From Thermus antranikianii DSM 12462 (GTDB taxonomy: Bacteria > Deinococcota > Deinococci > Deinococcales > Thermaceae): 64,000 nt of DNA. This document shows, piece by piece, positions 45,667-57,299 of the stretch; positions within the stretch are counted from its first letter, which is position 1; every line of letters begins with the position of its first letter. The notes under the pieces are model-generated. The model did not search any database. It had not been told where the DNA came from and saw only the letters and a list, made by a program, of their open reading frames with translations. The position numbers were made by a program, and so were the translations under genes. The DNA is taken from the NCBI RefSeq assembly GCF_000423905.1, contig NZ_KE384104.1:10586-74585 (forward strand), in the 5' to 3' direction.

Positions 45667-45945
45667 TTAAAAGCCCAGGGCCCCGAGAAGCCCGTAAAGC
45701 CCTGCCCCCAGGAAGACGGCCACGCCCAGGTTCCCGGTGAGCCCAAGCCCCAGATAGGTGCCAAGAAGGGCCAAGGCCGCCCGGACCCACTCGGAAGAAG
45801 GAGGCGGGCTAAAGGCGGAGACCAGGAAAAGGGCCACCACCAAGGCGGGCCCTGCCTGGCCCGCCCTTAGGCCTTTTTCCGCCCGCCAGGGCAGGAACCG
45901 GAGGAGAAAGGTGCCCAGGGCCAGAAGGAGAAGGGCCAAGGTCAT
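45667..45945 (-). CDS. azlD: AzlD family branched-chain amino-acid transport protein
   Basis: 92 residues, three hydrophobic segments (LALLLLALGTFLLRFLPW; ALVVALFLVSAF; AALALLGTYLGLGLTGNLGVAVFLGAG), the size and pattern of AzlD. It pairs with AzlC in branched-chain amino-acid and analogue export. ATG overlaps the azlC stop (ATGA). Confidence 0.9.
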   Translation of the reverse strand: MTLALLLLALGTFLLRFLPWRAEKGLRAGQAGPALVVALFLVSAFSPPPSSEWVRAALALLGTYLGLGLTGNLGVAVFLGAGLYGLLGALGF

Positions 45946-46592
45946 GGACGCCTCCTTTCGCCAAATCCCTCTCCAAGGAGCCCGGTGACCCCTGCCAGGA
46001 AGAGGCCCCAGGCCGTCTGGCCCAGGAGGTGGAAGCCCAGGGCCACCCCGCCCGCCAGCAGGGCCACGGGGTTCTTCAGGTGGGGCAGGGCCAGGAGGAA
46101 GAAAAGGGCGGGAAGGGCGAAGGAAAGGGCCTCCCCCAAACCCGGGAAGGCCAAGAGCCCCTGGGCCCCCAAGACCCCGAGGGCGGTGCCCAGGTTCCAG
46201 GAGAGGTAGGCCCCGAGGCCCAAGCCCAGGAAGTAGCCCCGCCTTTCCCCTGGGGGAAGGCCCGGGAGGGCCCTCAAAGCCACGGCGAAGACCTCATCGG
46301 TGAGAAAGAAGGCCTCTAGGGGACCTCCCCTCAGGTAGGGCCTCAGGGCGGGGCCGTAGAAGGCGTGGCGCAGGTTGAGGAGAAGCCCCAAAAGGGCCGC
46401 CAACAAGGGCGGGACCCCCTGGGCCAAAAGCCCCACCAGGGCGAACTGGCTGGCCCCGGCGAAGACCAGGAGAGAGGTGAGCTGGATCCAAAGGGGGCTG
46501 AGCCCCGCCTGCGCCCCCAAAGCGCCGAAGGCCACGGCCACGGGGAAATACCCCAAGGCGATGGGCCAAGCTGCCCGTAGCCCCCGCTTCAT
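45942..46592 (-). CDS. azlC: AzlC family branched-chain amino-acid exporter
   Basis: 216 residues with about seven membrane segments. LGYFPVAVAFGALGAQAGLSPLWIQLTSLLVFAGASQFALVGLLAQG and LNLRHAFYGPALRPYL are typical AzlC stretches. It forms the permease with AzlD. ATG 46592 is placed over the stop of the regulator gene (ATGA) with GGAGG 6 nt upstream; the frame extends 14 codons further without a ribosome site. Probably regulated by the adjacent XRE-cupin protein. Confidence 0.92.
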   Translation of the reverse strand: MKRGLRAAWPIALGYFPVAVAFGALGAQAGLSPLWIQLTSLLVFAGASQFALVGLLAQGVPPLLAALLGLLLNLRHAFYGPALRPYLRGGPLEAFFLTDEVFAVALRALPGLPPGERRGYFLGLGLGAYLSWNLGTALGVLGAQGLLAFPGLGEALSFALPALFFLLALPHLKNPVALLAGGVALGFHLLGQTAWGLFLAGVTGLLGEGFGERRRP

Positions 46593-48304
46593 TTGGGCCT
46601 CCTCAGGAGGAAGAGGTGGGTGCCCCCGTCCCAAGAACCGCGGCCATGGGTGGCAAACAAACGGTGGTGGTGCTCCAGCTCAAAGCCCACGGCAAAGGCC
46701 AGCTCCAAAAAACGGCGGGGATAGGTCTTGGTCTCCACCTCGTAGTCCAGCCCGGCCAGAAGGGCCTGGAGCTCCAGCCGCGCAAAGGTAGCGAAGGCAT
46801 CGGAACGCGTTTCAAGGTCTTGCAGAGCCTCCTCGGCCAAGGCCCTAAGGCCTCGGGACTTTCCTTGCAAGGCTAGCAGGCGTAAAGCCCAAAGGGCCTC
46901 CGTTTCCTCCAAGGGAAAGGGGAGCAGGTAGGCCGTGTGGTGAAGCACCAGGTTCCGGGCCCGCTCCTCTCGGGTGGTGAAGGGACGCAAAAACTCGTCC
47001 GCCACCGCCAAAAGGCCCCCAGGGCGCAGGAGCCGGTAAGCCTTCTCTAAGAAGCGCCACGTGGACATGTGGTGGCTGGCCCCCACGCAGACGATCAGGG
47101 GAAAGGTTTCCTCCGGATCCAAAAGGGTGAAATCCTCAGGCAACACCTCCACGCCTGGGATCAACTGGGCCAGGGCTTGCCTCGAGGCCGGACTGGGTTC
47201 CACCGCCACCGGCTCCAAATGGGGCAACAGCTCCAAGAGCAGGAGAAGGTGATGCCCAGGCCCCGTGCCCACGTCCAAAAACCTTCCCCTCTCCAGGCCC
47301 ACGGCCTGCAACCCATAGGCCAGAAAAAGGGGCTGCCTGGCGTAGCCGGGATGGAGGAGTTCCACCCGGGCGTAGAGGTCCACCGAGATACGACTTTCCC
47401 CATTCTCTTCCTTTGAAGAGCCCACAGGAGGCCGCGCGGTTTGGACGAGAAGAGAGGCCGGGTCGGCCACTTCCCCCTTAAGGAGCAACCCCTCCCAAGC
47501 CAGGGTGCGTAGGAGGAGGCTGGGGCTTTGCCCATGGGACCTCAGATCTTCTGTAGGGGCATGGAGGAGGGCCAAGGCCTCGCCCAAAAGCCCCTGGGCC
47601 TCGAGGCGGGGTAAGGAGGCCAAAGGGAGGCTAAAGAGGTAGGTGCGGTTTGCGCCCCAACGAACAAAAACCCCTTCCTGGAACCCCGGCGCAAGCCAGC
47701 GGCCTTCCAAGGCCAGACCCCCCACCCCTAGGCTCACCTCCCGCAGGGCCAAGGAGGCCTTCTCCGGGCTACCGGCCTCCCCTTGCGGCCGGGGAGGCAG
47801 TGGGTAGTGCAGGAAAACCAGGAGGCTCGCCCCCTCCTCGCTGGCGTACACATGGGGTTCATCCCCAGCGAACTCCACCTCTTCCCCCGGCCCCACCTCC
47901 CTGCCTGGAGGCGGTCCCACCCTGGCCTTCCCCCTTAGGCCGATGACCCGCTCACGAAGCCCCCGCTCGTGCGCCTCCGCCCAACGCACAGAACAGGGGG
48001 AGAGGTCCATACGGTACACCTCCAGCGGCTCACCCGACCGCCCTCGGGTTCGTTCAATAAGTTGAACCGTAACGCCCTCATCGCCTACAGGGCGGGCTTG
48101 GACCAACTCACCAAAGGGCACCTCCAGGGCCTGGGCCAAGGCCCAAAGGGTGGCCAAGGTGGGGTTGGCGCGTCCCGCTTCCAAGGCGTGAAGAAGCGAT
48201 TTCGCCACCCCGGCTTTGGCCGCCAAGCCAGACAGGGTCAGCCCCTTGGCCTGGCGCAACCGGCGGAGGTTTTGCCCCACTTCGTAGAACAGATCGTTCT
48301 TCAT
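46589..48304 (-). CDS. XRE-type HTH, cupin and SAM-methyltransferase fusion regulator
   Basis: 571 residues. N-terminal XRE HTH (about 8-65: NLRRLRQAKGLTLSGLAAKAGVAKSLLHALEAGRANPT), then a cupin-like sensory region (about 95-170, with ERVIGLRGKARVGPPPGREVGPGEEVEFAGDEPHVYASEEGASLLVFLHYP), an uncharacterised middle, and a complete class I methyltransferase from about 335 (LDVGTGPGHH, VCVGASHHMSTWRFLEKAYRLLRPGGLLAVADEF). XRE-cupin regulators are commonly next to azlCD; the added methyltransferase is unusual. ATG 48304 has a TTGACC-17-TAAGGT promoter, 7 nt upstream, whose spacer is a perfect palindrome, so autoregulation is likely. The stop overlaps azlC. Confidence 0.85.
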   Translation of the reverse strand: MKNDLFYEVGQNLRRLRQAKGLTLSGLAAKAGVAKSLLHALEAGRANPTLATLWALAQALEVPFGELVQARPVGDEGVTVQLIERTRGRSGEPLEVYRMDLSPCSVRWAEAHERGLRERVIGLRGKARVGPPPGREVGPGEEVEFAGDEPHVYASEEGASLLVFLHYPLPPRPQGEAGSPEKASLALREVSLGVGGLALEGRWLAPGFQEGVFVRWGANRTYLFSLPLASLPRLEAQGLLGEALALLHAPTEDLRSHGQSPSLLLRTLAWEGLLLKGEVADPASLLVQTARPPVGSSKEENGESRISVDLYARVELLHPGYARQPLFLAYGLQAVGLERGRFLDVGTGPGHHLLLLLELLPHLEPVAVEPSPASRQALAQLIPGVEVLPEDFTLLDPEETFPLIVCVGASHHMSTWRFLEKAYRLLRPGGLLAVADEFLRPFTTREERARNLVLHHTAYLLPFPLEETEALWALRLLALQGKSRGLRALAEEALQDLETRSDAFATFARLELQALLAGLDYEVETKTYPRRFLELAFAVGFELEHHHRLFATHGRGSWDGGTHLFLLRRPK

Positions 48305-48340
48305 ACAGAACACCTTAGGGGGACGTCCCCCAAAGGTCAA
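48305..48340 (-). promoter_or_regulatory. leaderless promoter with palindromic spacer (regulator gene)
   Basis: On the minus strand TTGACC (48340-48335), a 17-bp spacer, TAAGGT (48317-48312), 7 nt, then ATG 48304. The spacer contains the perfect palindrome GGGGGACGTCCCCC (48318-48331), ideally placed for a dimeric repressor, most simply the XRE protein itself. Confidence 0.75.
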
Positions 48341-48345
48341 CCCTT

Positions 48346-48368
48346 CCCCTTCTCCCAGGGAGAAGGGG
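48346..48368. terminator. hairpin terminator between vapC and the XRE regulator promoter
   Basis: CCCCTTCTCCC and GGGAGAAGGGG are perfectly complementary around a single A, a long GC-rich palindrome. It separates the toxin-antitoxin transcript from the regulator gene; the loop must open a few base pairs in RNA. Confidence 0.6.
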
Positions 48369-48465
48369 CCCCCAACCTGGTTTTCCGGCGAATCTAAGGC
48401 GGGGTATAGGGCCGACCCAGCGGACCTGAGGAGAGAACCCGGGGTCTTTTCCCCGTACAGCGCAT

Positions 48466-48873
48466 TTAACCTGAGGGGCGGAAGCTCCGGATGAAGTCGC
48501 CGGGGGTGAGGACCCTTAGGGGGAGATCCTGACGGGCCATCAAGGGACCGAAGTGGCGGGTATCCCCGGTGAGGAGAACAGAAGCCCCTGCGGCCACGGC
48601 GGCGGCGAGGAAGGGAAGGTCTTTTTCGGGCACCAGGCCCTCCATCCAAGCCTCGCCTTTGGCTTCCGGCACCAAGCGCACCACCTTGAGCCGGTCCTTG
48701 AGCCCTCTAAGGGCTTGGGGTCGTTTGCGCACGAGGTTTTCCCGGGCCTCCAGCAGGCAGTAAGGGCTTGTGGCCAGCCGGTACCTTCCCTTCCTGGCCC
48801 CCAGCCAGATCGCCTCAAACACCTCCCCCCCGAGGCTTGCCGAGAAAAGGACGTTGGCGTCCAAAAAGACCAA
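48466..48873 (-). CDS. PIN-domain toxin (VapC-like)
   Basis: About 135 residues. It begins VFLDANVLFSA with the first PIN acidic residue and contains SPYCLLEARENLVRK and LTGDTRHFG, where the conserved acidic residues of PIN nucleases sit. Such toxins cleave tRNA or rRNA. Start is probably TTG at 48873, one base after the antitoxin stop; the frame extends upstream without support. No other start is better placed. Confidence 0.8.
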   Translation of the reverse strand: MVFLDANVLFSASLGGEVFEAIWLGARKGRYRLATSPYCLLEARENLVRKRPQALRGLKDRLKVVRLVPEAKGEAWMEGLVPEKDLPFLAAAVAAGASVLLTGDTRHFGPLMARQDLPLRVLTPGDFIRSFRPSG

Positions 48874-48874
48874 C

Positions 48875-49120
48875 TCAGAGGCCCCAGGCCCGGCGGAAGG
48901 CATCCAGCTCCTCCGGGGTGACCTGGGCGTTTTCGGCGAACTCCCGGATGCGCTCCTCCGTGTAGAGCTCCACGGGCAACACCACCGCAGGCTCCAAGAC
49001 AACCCTGCCCGCTTCCACCCGGACCACCAAGGTGTCCCCCGGCTTCAAGCCCAAGGCCCGGCGTACCTCCGCGGGGAGGGTGATCTGGCCCCGTTTGGAG
49101 AGGGAGGTAAGCGCCTTCAT
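48875..49120 (-). CDS. AbrB/MazE-type antitoxin (VapB-like)
   Basis: 81 residues with the swapped-hairpin DNA-binding fold: LTSLSKRGQITLPAEVRRALGLKPGDTLVVRVEAGRVVLEP. The C-terminal acidic tail probably wraps the PIN toxin. ATG 49120 has TATACT 6 nt upstream (leaderless). The pair forms a type II toxin-antitoxin module directly beside the DndC-NurA-HerA cassette, divergent from it. Confidence 0.85.
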   Translation of the reverse strand: MKALTSLSKRGQITLPAEVRRALGLKPGDTLVVRVEAGRVVLEPAVVLPVELYTEERIREFAENAQVTPEELDAFRRAWGL

Positions 49121-49132
49121 GTTTTCAGTATA
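49121..49132 (-). promoter_or_regulatory. leaderless -10 of the AbrB/PIN operon
   Basis: TATACT (49132-49127) lies 6 nt before the antitoxin ATG on the minus strand. No convincing -35. Confidence 0.5.
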
Positions 49133-49201
49133 TCCGAAGACCGGAAATACAGAAGACCCCTCACAATAGCTCCCCGAGGGCCGAGACGTCTTTGCAGGGT
49201 A

Positions 49202-49230
49202 TTGATGAACCAATTCCCCACCATTAGCAT
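49202..49230 (+). promoter_or_regulatory. candidate promoter of the DndC-NurA-HerA cassette
   Basis: TTGATG (49202-49207), a 17-bp spacer and TAGCAT (49225-49230). The spacing is ideal, and an ATG at 49237 lies 6 nt after the -10, as in leaderless genes of this window. The gene for DndC follows 91 bp downstream of the -10. Confidence 0.4.
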
Positions 49231-49236
49231 TGCGCC

Positions 49237-49338
49237 ATGAGGCGAACCGAGCACACTCCTTTGCTGGAACACACGCCCAAGGCGGGATGGGCAAAGTTCT
49301 GGATGCTTAAAGGAGGAGGCGATGAAGGTTTCCCTTGA
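49237..49338 (+). CDS. possible 33-aa leaderless leader peptide before dndC
   Basis: A short frame beginning MRRTEHTPLLEHTPK starts 6 nt after the TAGCAT hexamer and ends 17 nt into the dndC gene in another reading frame. It has an internal HTP repeat. It could couple translation to dndC, act as an attenuator or be chance. No family recognised. Confidence 0.3.
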   Translation: MRRTEHTPLLEHTPKAGWAKFWMLKGGGDEGFP

Positions 49339-50356
49339 AGCGCTGGCCGCGGGGATAGGGGAACCCTTTGGGTCTTTCGACCTCAAAGAGGCCACAGACC
49401 TGGCCGAGCGCGCCCTCGAGGCCGCCCTCGTCCAGGGGGCCGAGGCCTTCGTCCTCACCTACTCGGGGGGCAAGGACTCCACCGCCACCACCGTCCTCAC
49501 CCTGGAGTGGTGGAAGCGCCGGGGGAAGCCCGTGGAGATCCACGTGGTCTACGCCGACACGGGGCTGGAGATCCCCACCCTCCACGCCCAGGCCCTGGCC
49601 TTCCTGGAGGCGGTGAAGAGGCTCCACCCCGGGGTCCACGTTCACACCGCCCGCCCCCGCCCCGAGGAGAGCTTCTGGGTCCAAATCATCGGCAAGGGCT
49701 ACCCCCCGCCCCACAACCGCTTCCGCTGGTGCACCCGCAGGTTGAAGATCGCCCCCATGGACCGCCTGGTCCAGAGCCTTCCCGGGAAGAAGGCCATCCT
49801 CACGGGGGTGCGCTTCGGGGAGTCGGACGCCCGGGACCAGAGGCTCATCCTCTCTTGCTCCCGGGGCGGGGAGTGCGGCCAGGGGGTGCTCTTCCAGGAG
49901 GCCAAGCGCCTGAATGCCCTCTACGTGGCCCCCATCGCCTTCTGGCGGGAGTGCTTCGTGTGGGACTACCTGAACTTCGTGGCCCCCTCCCTGGGCTACC
50001 CCACGGAGGGCCTGGAGGCGGTCTACGGGGGCCGGGACACCCGCTTCGGGTGCTGGACCTGCACCGTGGTGCGGCGGGACAAGGCCATGGCGCGGGCCCT
50101 GGAGAACGGCCACGCCCACCTCCTCCCCCTCTACGAGTTCCGGGAGTGGCTTTGGGCGTGGACCCGGGATCCCCGGACCCGGGAGAAGCGGAAGGACGGC
50201 AAGCCCGGGAGGCTCACCCTGGAGGCCAGGCGGGAGGTGTACCGGAGGTTGAAGGAGGTGGAGGCGAAGCTCGGGATGGAGTTCCTCACTTCCGAGGAGG
50301 AGGCGCTCATTCAGAAGCTGTGGCGTTCCGGGAGGTACAATGGAAAACGCAGGTGA
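49322..50356 (+). CDS. DndC/PAPS-reductase-family sulfurtransferase
   Basis: 344 residues. PP-loop ATP pyrophosphatase motif TYSGGKDST (about 46-54), substrate loop VVYADTGLEIP, RWCTRRLKIAP (Cys 137) and the signature RFGCWTCTVVRRDKAM (Cys 244 and 247); Cys 179 and 185 also stand close together. This set matches DndC (SspD), the DNA phosphorothioation enzyme that binds an Fe-S cluster and adenylates the DNA backbone, more than assimilatory CysH. It is shorter than typical DndC. ATG 49322 follows AAAGGAGGAGGCG. First gene of a three-gene cassette with nurA and herA. Confidence 0.85.
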   Translation: MKVSLEALAAGIGEPFGSFDLKEATDLAERALEAALVQGAEAFVLTYSGGKDSTATTVLTLEWWKRRGKPVEIHVVYADTGLEIPTLHAQALAFLEAVKRLHPGVHVHTARPRPEESFWVQIIGKGYPPPHNRFRWCTRRLKIAPMDRLVQSLPGKKAILTGVRFGESDARDQRLILSCSRGGECGQGVLFQEAKRLNALYVAPIAFWRECFVWDYLNFVAPSLGYPTEGLEAVYGGRDTRFGCWTCTVVRRDKAMARALENGHAHLLPLYEFREWLWAWTRDPRTREKRKDGKPGRLTLEARREVYRRLKEVEAKLGMEFLTSEEEALIQKLWRSGRYNGKRR

Positions 50357-50362
50357 ACTCCT

Positions 50363-51490
50363 ATGCCGTATGCGGGAGAAGGAAGCAATCCCCTTGGCCT
50401 CAAGGACTTCCTTGACGATCTCAGGCTAGACCACTACCAGGATCTCCTGCGCGAGCTAGACGAGCTTTACCAAAAACTCAAGCAGGAGCGCCAAGTGCCC
50501 TTGCACGGGGACGGGGAGGCCTACCCTCTCCTCACCCTCACCGTGGACGGAGGCGAGGGACGCGCCTTCGAAGAGCTTCCGCTCCTCTCCTTCGGCCTCG
50601 TGCGCGTTGCCGCAGTGGGGGTGAAGGGTTTCCGCCTACCCTCCATCGCCCACCTCCTCCCTGGGTATGAAGTCCTACGGGATCCCAAGGGCTACCTGGA
50701 AGGTCTCCTCGAGCGCTCCGAAGAAAGCCCCGCCGCTGATGCTTTGAAGACCTTCTTCCGGGCCACAGGCATCTCCCTGGAGGATCTGGGAGAATACTAC
50801 ACCAAGGACCTCAGGGCCTTCATGGGGATCTTCCGGGACGTCCTGGAGTGGGCCTACCTGGTTTGGGGGGTGGAGAAGGTCTTGCAGGAAAGTTACAAAG
50901 ACTACCTTTTCATCAAAGACGGGCGCCTTGCGCAATTGGGCGTCAGAGAGAGTTTCCGCTCTAAACTACAGAACTACTTCGCAAGGAAGCACCTCCTTCT
51001 TGCTGGGGTCACCAAACGCTCCCGCCTCCTCGCTGAAGGCCTCACCTCCTTGGTGATGGCGAGGCTTTTCGCCGAAGCCAGGGGAACCTTCGTGCTCCAG
51101 GTCCCCCAGGAACTCATGGAGAAGGCTTACCGCTACGAGCGCCAGTGGAACGCCGACCTCGAGGGAGCCTTCGTCATGGGCAGGCGTTACGTGGCGCGCC
51201 TCCTTGAGGACACCTTTAGACCTCAGGAGGGTGTGGCCATCTTTGATCTCCCCCCCTACTTGGGGGAGGAGGATGCCGTTAAGGTAGCCCGAAGCCTAAG
51301 GGCACACCGTAGCGTCCTCTATGGGGGGAGTGTGGGAACGGTGGTAGAGGCCCACGGGAGGGCCTCCGTGGCCAGGTCCATCCCTCGCAGGATGGAGGAG
51401 GAGATCCTCGCTCGGTTCAGAAAGGCCTTTGGCGAAGATCTCGCCAAGAAGCTCACTGAATGGCTCAGGCTGGCAGACAGGGAGGACTGA
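50363..51490 (+). CDS. NurA-like 5'-3' nuclease
   Basis: 375 residues. The NurA motif I aspartate lies in LTLTVDGGEGRAF (about residue 62), and the C-terminal FDLPPYLGEEDAVKVARSLRAH, then GTVVEAHGRASVARSI, corresponds to the conserved NurA region where the terminal acidic/His residues bind metal. NurA works with HerA to resect DNA ends in archaea. ATG starts 6 nt after dndC. Annotation is by motif pattern and by its neighbour HerA, as NurA proteins diverge strongly. Confidence 0.8.
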   Translation: MPYAGEGSNPLGLKDFLDDLRLDHYQDLLRELDELYQKLKQERQVPLHGDGEAYPLLTLTVDGGEGRAFEELPLLSFGLVRVAAVGVKGFRLPSIAHLLPGYEVLRDPKGYLEGLLERSEESPAADALKTFFRATGISLEDLGEYYTKDLRAFMGIFRDVLEWAYLVWGVEKVLQESYKDYLFIKDGRLAQLGVRESFRSKLQNYFARKHLLLAGVTKRSRLLAEGLTSLVMARLFAEARGTFVLQVPQELMEKAYRYERQWNADLEGAFVMGRRYVARLLEDTFRPQEGVAIFDLPPYLGEEDAVKVARSLRAHRSVLYGGSVGTVVEAHGRASVARSIPRRMEEEILARFRKAFGEDLAKKLTEWLRLADRED

Positions 51491-51491
51491 G

Positions 51492-53252
51492 ATGGCCGAA
51501 AGCCCCATCGGCGTGGTGGTGTCTTCCAGGCGGAACGGCCCTTGGGCGGAGCTCACCTTAGTGCTCACCCCCCAGGAGCTGGACCAAGGCAAGCGCCTCC
51601 TCCTAGGCGAACTCGTTCGCGTTTCTTCTGGCGGGAAAGACTACGTGGGCATGGTTTTAGACGGCTACTACGAGCCCGTGGGGCGTAGCGACCCCACCTA
51701 TACCCTCGCTCTGGCCCACATCAATCAGGTGGACCTGGAGAAGGAGGACCCTTGGGCGCGAAAGGAAGTCAACTTCTACCACCACCGGATCGTCCTCCTA
51801 GGGAGGGTCGTGCAGGGAGGGCTCTTCGCCCCCTCCACCCGCCTGCTCCCCCCCGTGGTGGAGGCTCGGGTCTACCGCATGACGGAGGAGGAACTCCAAA
51901 GGTTGCTCGCCGCCGAGGTCAGAACCTCAGGGAGCGTTAAGGCCGAGGGGAAGAGGAGGTACGCCTTCGGCCACCTGGCCTACGGCCTAGAAGAAGGCGG
52001 GGAGTATCCAGAGGTGGTGAAGGAGGTGGACCCCGCCCTCTTCGTGGGCAGAAGGACGGCCAACTTCGGCAAGACGGGCTTCGGGAAGAGCAACGAGAAC
52101 AAGGTCATCCTCACCCTTTTGGCCCACGCCTTTCCCCGGGTGGGGATGTTGATCCTGGACCAGAACGCCGAGTACCTCCTCCAGACGGAGGCCACCACCT
52201 CCCCGGGCCTCGCCCAGGCCTTCAAGGCGCTGGGGATTCGGGGCCGGATCCGCTTCTACACCGCCAGGGAGGAGGCCTGGGCGAGGAGGTTGAAGGAACA
52301 CCTGGGGACGGAGTGGAGGGAGTACGTGGAGGTCTTGCCCCTTAAAGTGGACTTCTACCACTTCCCCGAGCTGGCCGTGGCCCTCGCCTACCAGAGGCGT
52401 CGCCTCCAGGGGGCAGAGCCTCCCCAGTACCTGGAGAACGCCTTTTACAACCTCGAGGACTGGAAGCATATCCCCGACCGCATGGCCTACGTCTACGGGG
52501 CGCTTCGGAAAGCGGGCCTCACCCCTCGCAAGGGCCTCAAAATAAAGTACAAGAACGAAAACTACGACATATCCGAAGAGAAGTCTTGGGGCAACCTCCA
52601 AGAGGCCATGGAGAACAACAGCCAGCGAGGGGACAATAAGGGAGGGGCGAGGGAGCTCTACAGCCGGGCCAAGGTCTTCTCTTTCCTCCGCGCTTTCCAC
52701 GCGCCTGGAAAGGAGGCGAACTTCCTCGAAACTATCAAAGAGGATCTCCTCGGGGAGAAAACCGAGGGAGAAGGTAAGGTGGTCATCCTCGACCTTCCTT
52801 CCCTGGGCGAGGCCGCCGACTTCTTCACCTTGCGCCTCATGGACCTCCTTTTCGACAGGGCCGTAGAACTCTACGGCAAGCGCCAGGCCAACTTCCTCGT
52901 GGTCCTGGAAGAGGCCCACAACTTCCTGGAGGACAAGGCAGGGATCTTCTACCGCGTGGCCAAGGAGGGGAGGAAGTACGGCATAGGAATGCTGTACTCC
53001 ACTCAGTCCCCCGCCAGCATCCCCATGGAGATACTCTCCCAGACGGAAAACTTTCTGGTGAAGCACCTCTCCAGCGAGGAGGACGTGAAAGTCCTCAAGA
53101 GGGCTAAAGCTCCTTTTGCCTTTGTGGCCGACTTTCTCCTCTCTGAGCCCATAATAGGCTACTCCTATGTTTACTTCGAGCCTTATCAGCCTTTCGTGGT
53201 CCCACTGCGGGTCAAACTCTTGGAGCATGTCCTCAAAAGCCTCGACTCGTGA
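51492..53252 (+). CDS. HerA-like DNA translocase ATPase
   Basis: 586 residues. N-terminal HAS-barrel-like beta region (IGVVVSSRRNGPWAELTLVL), a Walker A FGKTGFGKS (about 193-200), Walker B VVLEEAHNF (about 470-478), and the sensor segments GIGMLYSTQSPASIP and LVKHLSSEEDVKVL typical of HerA/FtsK-type hexameric motors. The ATG is 1 nt after the nurA stop, with GGGAGGACTGAG upstream. About 200 residues inserted between Walker A and B have AT-richer codons than the neighbours. It pairs with NurA as a DNA-degrading machine. Downstream, 105 bp without a gene follows. Confidence 0.92.
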   Translation: MAESPIGVVVSSRRNGPWAELTLVLTPQELDQGKRLLLGELVRVSSGGKDYVGMVLDGYYEPVGRSDPTYTLALAHINQVDLEKEDPWARKEVNFYHHRIVLLGRVVQGGLFAPSTRLLPPVVEARVYRMTEEELQRLLAAEVRTSGSVKAEGKRRYAFGHLAYGLEEGGEYPEVVKEVDPALFVGRRTANFGKTGFGKSNENKVILTLLAHAFPRVGMLILDQNAEYLLQTEATTSPGLAQAFKALGIRGRIRFYTAREEAWARRLKEHLGTEWREYVEVLPLKVDFYHFPELAVALAYQRRRLQGAEPPQYLENAFYNLEDWKHIPDRMAYVYGALRKAGLTPRKGLKIKYKNENYDISEEKSWGNLQEAMENNSQRGDNKGGARELYSRAKVFSFLRAFHAPGKEANFLETIKEDLLGEKTEGEGKVVILDLPSLGEAADFFTLRLMDLLFDRAVELYGKRQANFLVVLEEAHNFLEDKAGIFYRVAKEGRKYGIGMLYSTQSPASIPMEILSQTENFLVKHLSSEEDVKVLKRAKAPFAFVADFLLSEPIIGYSYVYFEPYQPFVVPLRVKLLEHVLKSLDS

Positions 53253-53346
53253 CGAATACCCTTTTCCCCTGTTTCGTTTGCTCGCCTACCACCGGAAGTC
53301 TCCGCTAAGGCTTTTCCCCAGGACCCCCGTGCGGGCTTGCGCCGGT

Positions 53347-53361
53347 ATGGGGTGGTATCAG
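53347..53361 (-). repeat. ATGGGGTGGTATCAG repeat at a gene 3' end
   Basis: The same 15-mer occurs at 36143-36157. In both places it covers the minus-strand stop codon (TGA) and the next bases TACCACCCCAT. The shared sequence is outside any coding similarity. Confidence 0.55.
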
Positions 53362-54227
53362 CGGATCTCCACCCCGCCCCAGCGCTCCAAAAGCCTCAGG
53401 GCCTCCACGTGGTCCGCATCCGGGCCCAGCTCCCGCTTGGCCATCTCGTAGACCTCCCGGGCGAGGCGGAGGAGGGGGCTTGGGGCCTTCTCCCCGTCCA
53501 AAACCCCCATGGCGATCCCCAGGTCCTTCACCAATAGCCCCAAGGCGAAGGTCTTGGGGAAGGCCCGGGTGAGGACCCTTTGGGGAATGAGGTTCTCCGT
53601 GGCGTTGGAGCGGCCCGAGGAGGCGTTGATGACCTCGAGGGCCTTCTCCGCGGAAACCCCCTGCTTCACCAGGGCCAAAAGCCCCTCCCCCGCCGCCCAG
53701 AGGTTCACGGCGAGGAGGGCGTTGTTGATAGCCTTCACCGCATGCCCCGCCCCCACGGGGCCCACGTGCACCACTTTGCCGGCGTAGGCCAAATACGGCC
53801 TGACCCATTCCACCGCCTCCTCCGGCCCCCCCATCATCACCGTGAGGGTGCCCCTTTGGGCCCCCAGGGTACCGCCGGATACCGGGGCGTCCAGGTAGGT
53901 CACCCCCTTTTCCAGAAGGCGCTCCGCCAGAAGGCGGCTTGCCTCGGGCTCGCCGCTGGTGGCGTCCACCCAGTAGGTGCCCTCCCTGAGGTAGGGGTAG
54001 AGGGCCTCGGCCACCTCGTAGACCTCCCGGGTGGTGGGAAGGCAGGTGAAGATCACCCGGGCCTCGGCCACCCTCTCCAAGGGCACGGCCTCGGAGCCGA
54101 ACTCCTCCTGGTGCCTCAGGGCCTTTTCAAAGGTGCGGTTCCAGACCAGGGTGGGGAAACGCCGCGCCAGGTGCCCCGCCATGGGGTAGCCCATGGCCCC
54201 AAGACCGATGAAGGCCACCTTTTCCAT
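53358..54227 (-). CDS. mmsB: 3-hydroxyisobutyrate dehydrogenase
   Basis: 289 residues of the beta-hydroxyacid dehydrogenase family. N-terminal Rossmann motif [19 protein letters not shown], the substrate-binding signature [24 protein letters not shown], and the catalytic-lysine region [15 protein letters not shown] (Lys near residue 170). It oxidises 3-hydroxyisobutyrate (valine catabolism) to methylmalonate semialdehyde. It heads the minus-strand gene pair group 53358-56207 and lies 105 bp from herA, in a convergent layout. Confidence 0.92.
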
Positions 54228-54236
54228 GGCTTTTTT

Positions 54237-54592
54237 TTACCAGAGGCGAAGCCCCTTGGCGAGGCCCCTTAGGAGAAGGAGGAAAAGGAGGCTGAACCCC
54301 ATGGCCACGCCCAAGAAGACGAAGAACCCCACCCCGAAAGCCCCGCCCAAGACCATCTGCCTCAGCCATAGCCCCGCGGGGAAGGCGAAGAGCCAGGTGA
54401 GGAGGAGGTTTTTCCAGGTGGGCCTCCTGTAGGTGCCGAGGAAGGGAGCAAGGAGGAGCCAGACGAAGAGGACGGGGAGGACGTTCCGGGCGAGGCCTCC
54501 CAAGGAGAGGGGAAGCCCGTGGGAAAGGAGGCCCACCCCGGCGAAGAGGAGGAGGGCGAGGAGGTCCAGGAGGAAAAGGGCCGTCTTTCGGC

Positions 54593-54596
<4 letters not shown>
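54237..54596 (-). CDS. DUF3054 family membrane protein
   Basis: 119 residues with four hydrophobic segments ([74 protein letters not shown]). Matches DUF3054 length and topology; function unknown. ATG overlaps the lipA stop (ATGA), so it is co-translated with lipoate genes. Confidence 0.85.
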
Positions 54597-56361
<1,765 letters not shown>

Positions 56362-57299
56362 TAAGAAACTGTTGTAAAAGTCCCCTCCTCCAGCTTATGC
56401 GGCCCTGGCCAGCCGCTTCACCAGCAAGCGTATCATGCCTAAATACATCCAGGCTTCCGTTACCTCAGGGTGGTACTCGTAATCTTTCCCCAGCCGTCGG
56501 TTTCGCCCCATCCAGGCAAAGGTCCGCTCCACCACCCACCGCTTGGGCAGGGGCTTGAACCCACCCTCCCGCGGGATCTCCGGCACCTCCTCCCCCTCCC
56601 GCACCCAGACCCCCCGCACCCCCGCGTAAGGACGGGCCACCACCTCCAGCTCCAGTCCCAGCCCCCTAGCCACCTCCCGCAAACCCCGGTAACCCCAGTC
56701 CACAAAGAGCTTGCGTACCCGGGGCCACAAGGAGAGGTCCATCCCCAAAAGCAACGCCTGCCCACCCCACTTGTCGTGCTCATTGGCCGGGTGGACAAAG
56801 GCCTTCAAAAGACGGCCCCCCGTGTCCGTCAGGATCTGCCGCTTCCTCCCTTTGACCTTCTTCGCCCCGTCGTGTCCCCGGGGCCCCCCTTTTCACTCGT
56901 CTGCAAGATACGGGCTATGCCCGTGACCACCGACTGGCTGTCCATAACCAGGGCACTCGGGGAGGCATACCGTCCTCCCCGCTCCCGGTCACGACGGGCC
57001 AGAACCTGAGCTACCTTCTCCCAAACCCCTTCCTTCTGCCACTTGCGGAAGTAGTGGTAGACCGTGGACCAGTGGGGCAAGTCGTGAGGCATGGCCCGCC
57101 ACTTGATGCCGTTTTCCAGGACGTAAAGTATGGCGCTGACGATCTCCCTCCTCGGCACCTTTGCGGGTCGGCCACCGGGCTTGGGGGCGGGGATCAACGG
57201 CTCCAGGATGGCCCACTCCGCGTCCGACAGGTCGCTGGGGTAAGATCTCCGTGTAGAAGCCACCCTTCAAGTATAGCGGACTTTTACGACAGTCTCTAA
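56362..57299 (-). mobile_element. IS5-family insertion sequence with 3-bp target duplication
   Basis: Terminal inverted repeats GAAACTGTTGTAAAAGTCC (56365-56383) and its near-complement at 57278-57296 match at 17 of 19 positions, flanked by TAA on both sides (56362-56364 and 57297-57299). A TNA duplication is typical of the IS1031 group of IS5. The transposase is on the minus strand. The insertion lies exactly in the TAA stop codon of the SDR gene and re-creates a TAG stop. Confidence 0.9.
56395..57263 (-). CDS. IS5-family DDE transposase, two frames joined by -1 frameshift
   Basis: First frame (57263 to about 56829) carries the DUF4096-like N-terminus (SDAEWAILEPLIP, SAILYVLENGIKWRAMPHDLPHWSTVYHYFRKWQKEGVW) and the first catalytic Asp (ALVMDSQSV). 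The second frame, ending 56395, continues with GHDGAKKVKGRKRQILTDTGG, VHPANEHD, FVDWGYRG and VVERTFAWMGRNRRLGKDYE, which contain the second Asp and the Glu. The frames join at the slippery heptamer G GGG GGC (minus strand 56889-56883), a classical -1 site. Catalytic residues look intact, so the element may be active. Confidence 0.9.

Follow-up and report, generated by a model that had tools for sequence, protein, structure and literature searches.

The Tdp phosphorothioation system, published by An et al. (Nat Chem Biol 2025), reportedly comes from a Thermus strain, T. antranikianii. In this system, TdpC is said to make phosphorothioate (PT) via an adenylated DNA intermediate, and TdpAB reportedly restricts phage DNA and is hindered by PT in self DNA. 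Single elements of this make-up recur in other described systems: DndABCDE(-FGH) contains DndC, a homolog of TdpC; SspABCD-SspE and Type 4 BREX (BrxP) each contain a sulfur enzyme of the PAPS reductase family; and the NurA-HerA end-resection complex likewise pairs a hexameric HerA-like motor with a nuclease. We analyzed a window of 64,000 nucleotides from T. antranikianii DSM 12462 (contig NZ_KE384104.1) and found that the TdpA and TdpB it encodes are the very proteins whose structures have been published. TdpB (375 of 375 amino acids) and TdpA (586 of 586) are identical over their full lengths to the chains named TdpB (8wet_G) and TdpA (8wet_A), and this identity extends over PDB entries 8WET, 8WFD, and 8Y1K, which were released on 2025-01-22 under the titles “The cryo-EM structure of TdpAB complex” and “TdpAB in complex with AMPPNP and DNA.” The three entries together contain 18 TdpA and 6 TdpB chains, i.e. 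a ratio of 6:2 per entry. For TdpC, neither phmmer nor a profile search returned a relevant PDB match, and because TdpC has no solved chain for a letter-by-letter comparison, its equivalence to the published protein rests on operon context. Compared with TdpABC (An et al. 2025; 8WET, 8WFD, and 8Y1K), the locus has the same three-gene make-up, and we found no difference. We therefore consider it close to certain that the operon, in the order tdpC-tdpB-tdpA, is the published TdpABC defense system. The initial annotation had proposed a compact module pairing a DNA-sulfur enzyme with a nuclease and motor, which is what the operon encodes, but had presented it as an undescribed system; as the Tdp machinery is published and TdpA and TdpB match the solved chains letter for letter, this part of the proposal falls.

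The operon lies on the forward strand. A ribosome-binding site, AAGGAGGAGG (positions 49310–49319), was read off the sequence ahead of tdpC (49322–50356), which encodes a DndC-like enzyme of 344 amino acids with the ATP-pyrophosphatase/PAPS-reductase fold, the sulfur-modifying component, assigned from PF01507, DndC-type PADLOC and NCBIfam matches, its position in a clade of its own, and a structural model. It is followed after 6 nt by tdpB (50363–51490), the gene for the nuclease subunit, and, after a further 1 nt, by tdpA (51492–53252), which encodes a HerA/DUF87 hexameric DNA translocase (PF01935 and PF05872). The gene starts were refined by reading the sequence after the automatic ORF call; for tdpA, we took the ATG at 51492, whereas the automatic call begins further upstream at a TTG. 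The three genes, their spacing, and the motifs SGGKDST, RFGCWTCTVV, VDGGEG (in TdpB), GKTGFGKS, and LEEAHNF, as quoted in the initial annotation, were all confirmed in the ORFs and by sequence reading. To the left of the operon, on the reverse strand, lie an AbrB/MazE-like antitoxin gene (48875–49120) and a PIN-domain gene that overlaps it (the pair spanning 48466–49120). Elsewhere in the window, we noted by eye overlapping reverse-strand ORFs (56395–56808 and 56829–57263; overall 56395–57263) that resemble an IS5-type transposase gene split by a frameshift.

Of 50 Thermaceae genomes, TdpB was detected in 7; in each, tdpC immediately precedes and tdpA immediately follows tdpB, so the conservation of the triplet, proposed at the outset as a check, held for every carrier. 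Beyond these, the 111 genomes of the phylum yielded a single very weak TdpB match (G098, 20.6 bits), which was left out of the counts together with TdpC matches in G005 and G012 (36 and 33 bits, respectively), and no TdpB was found in the plasmids, phages, and viral contigs searched. Two loci are damaged. In a fragmented assembly of 620 contigs (G042), the tdp copy contains stops, and tdpA is spread over two contigs; in G028 (L051, 11434–12609), tdpB is split near codon 183 by ∼1.18 kb containing a transposase-like ORF, but its neighbors tdpC and tdpA remain intact, and this locus may be a natural case of modification only. A block of ∼10.6 kb in the window (45683–56261), comprising the operon and its flanks, is 98.9% identical to the chromosome of Thermus parvatiensis RL, whereas neighboring blocks are 84–96% identical. 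This difference points to a recent exchange of the tdp block between species, with recombination in the flanks as its route. The flanks of tdp loci are common only to close copies, and two of the seven triplets (in G037 and G049) share none of these flanks. The AbrB/PIN pair does adjoin the operon, as had been noted, but its membership in the system was rejected, as only close copies share this setting, and we regard it as a bystander.

TdpC also occurs without TdpB and TdpA. The Thermus phage Tsatsa (L026, PQ109078) encodes a TdpC that is 85% identical to that of the window over 315 amino acids, and further stand-alone copies were found in G031, G033, IMG/VR contigs, and a T. parvatiensis genome (G038), which carries a complete tdpCBA and, in a second place, a prophage with its own tdpC (L050 and L049). 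All stand-alone copies belong to IN93/P23-77-like Thermus phages or prophages, where they occupy one slot, downstream of the replication gene and ORF2, and are never accompanied by tdpB or tdpA. Counting only readable IN93-like elements, the slot contains TdpC in Tsatsa/G031, G033, G038, and two IMG/VR contigs (plus two partial ones), and tblastn detected no TdpC in the slot of L088, L091, L094, L096, G029, G036, G022, G009, and two elements of G044. PAPS reductase genes of phages Tsatsa and P23-77 are known, with the function of the phage “PAPS reductase” left open by the Tsatsa authors (PMC11437467). The two differ in kind: the Tsatsa gene is a relative of tdpC without a neighboring tdpB or tdpA, whereas P23-77 holds in the same slot (L057, 1889–2656) a PAPS reductase of another family, which matches phrog_424 (155 bits) and SspD (50 bits) but no DndC model and was therefore rejected as a TdpC. 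This suggests that the slot accepts various sulfur-enzyme genes.

The phage copies retain traces of how they were acquired. In Tsatsa, tdpC lies between two 59-nt direct repeats (1576–1634 and 2649–2707, within the region 1576–2707) that are 95% identical to each other, stem from a duplication of the start of the following phage gene, and include its ribosome-binding site and eight opening codons. Phage L088, which is nearly identical to Tsatsa, has a single copy of the repeat and no tdpC, i.e. an empty site. Judging from the reading frame, the Tsatsa gene probably starts at the GTG at 1611, fused to these eight codons, rather than at the annotated position 1710. In a second type of phage or prophage (L047, 7988–8926; L049, 9647–10585; L061, 1792–2730; and L062, 5001–5939), phage-specific ends are joined to a 926-bp core of host tdpC. 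In the G033/L061 type (L047 and L061), this core is 98.6–98.7% identical to positions 49379–50304 of the window, with both ends different, and the phage copy is closer to the window tdpC than is the host gene of G048 (95.3% over codons); G036 is an empty relative of this type. The phage copies fall in two places of the TdpC tree, where two origins are not required if one goes by the supported branches alone. Because both junctions and lineages differ, however, the simplest reading suggests at least two separate insertions of tdpC into phages. Comparison of the two phage types gave a dN/dS of 0.22–0.24, which suggests that purifying selection has acted and that the phage genes work.

For a phage that carries the marking enzyme but never the nuclease, the simplest gain would be the marking of its own DNA. 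We thus propose that membrane-containing phages of the IN93/P23-77 group acquired host tdpC on repeated occasions, use it without tdpAB to mark their own DNA with PT, and so pass as self before TdpAB, a counter-defense to which we give an even chance. As alternatives, phage tdpC may protect against another PT-sensitive defense, may benefit the lysogen, or may have a role in sulfur metabolism. The general idea of anti-restriction by a DndC-type phage protein is not new, because a phage paper of 2026 raised such a role, which it did not test, for a phage DndC homolog (PMC13299392). Our search, which left most subscription journals outside its reach, returned no paper naming phage TdpC. Overall, the tdpC-tdpB-tdpA operon is real and already known as the Tdp phosphorothioation system; the phage-borne tdpC, for which we found no published explanation, looks new and is the main interest of the locus.

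Further, the operon itself might be read in other ways. A HerA-type motor beside a nuclease with a NurA-like motif could be a NurA-HerA pair for DNA-end resection in repair that lies next to a sulfur-metabolism gene by chance, and the bacterial NurA-HerA of other taxa does function in resecting DNA ends (PMC9960219). TdpA exceeds the cut-offs of the DUF87 and HerA_C domains (37.4 and 25.5 bits versus 23.2 and 22, respectively) but stays far under those of the HerA repair helicase equivalogs NF040937 (34.8 of 800 bits) and NF040819 (28.9 of 970 bits). A patchy presence, in a minority of Thermaceae genomes, the constant company of TdpC, and structures solved and named as TdpAB also speak against a repair pair, which we consider very improbable. 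TdpB had no match in Pfam, PADLOC, or PHROGs; its AlphaFold model, built from four sequences, is too poor (pLDDT of 50.9) to establish a NurA fold, and the sole significant fold match is TdpB itself.

That the Tdp operon is instead left over from a complete Dnd or Ssp system has, in our estimate, hardly any probability. The best PADLOC matches of TdpC are indeed DndC models, and DndC is also among its top two NCBIfam matches, which bears out the original reading of the gene as DndC-like. However, TdpC misses the cut-off of the DndC equivalog TIGR03183 (151.8 versus 290.4 bits), and in a maximum-likelihood tree it forms one supported clade (99/99) beside, and separate from, that of DndC (99/100); the methyltransferase-associated phage homologs lie apart from it. 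DndD did not exceed its cut-off in the genome (best match, 26.2 versus 245.85 bits), and the triplet itself is conserved; the view of the locus as a Dnd fragment, raised earlier as a caveat, is not supported. HerA/NurA-like TdpAB stands in place of DndFGH, and DndE had no match in the genome, with control genomes equally silent. SspD and BrxP models score TdpC at 45.5 and 49.1 bits, respectively, well below DndC. A Deinococcus plasmid match (41%) and matches in Pseudomonas, Rhizobium, and Microcystis phages were rejected as Tdp, since they fall in the DNA-methyltransferase-associated group. TdpC does belong to the superfamily of PAPS reductases (PF01507, 54.8 bits versus a cut-off of 22.5), and its moderate AlphaFold model (pLDDT of 66) is similar in structure to PAPS reductases and to TtuA and NcsA, which are [4Fe-4S] thiolases, a likeness that fits ATP-driven sulfur insertion. 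All nine homologs compared, phage copies included, retain six cysteines (137, 179, 185, 211, 244, and 247). The assignment of TdpC to the assimilatory PAPS reductases (CysH) or tRNA thiolases of this superfamily can be dismissed almost entirely, as the CysH model scores 28.9 bits against a cut-off of 154 and against 151.8 for DndC, and as tdpC is patchy, operonic with tdpBA, and found as phage cargo.

In the Tdp system as we picture it, TdpC, with its PP-ATPase fold, SGGKDST loop, and conserved cysteines, would use ATP to activate a phosphate in the backbone of the DNA and then exchange the adenylate for sulfur, leaving PT marks on the host genome. The HerA-like TdpA hexamer and the TdpB dimer would encircle double-stranded DNA, move along it, and degrade it; PT in self DNA would hinder TdpAB, and unmarked phage DNA would be destroyed. 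The PT chemistry, adenylated intermediate, anti-phage activity, and PT sensing in this scheme come from the literature, and the TdpAB identity, 6:2 ratio, operon order and conservation, and TdpC family and fold from the present analysis. We infer that the operon is active in the T. antranikianii strain. The present survey maps Tdp as a patchy, exchangeable defense of the Thermaceae, and stand-alone phage tdpC offers a directly testable case of evading a DNA-sulfur defense by carrying its marking enzyme. If true, this would also explain what the phage “PAPS reductase” does, a question that the Tsatsa authors left open.
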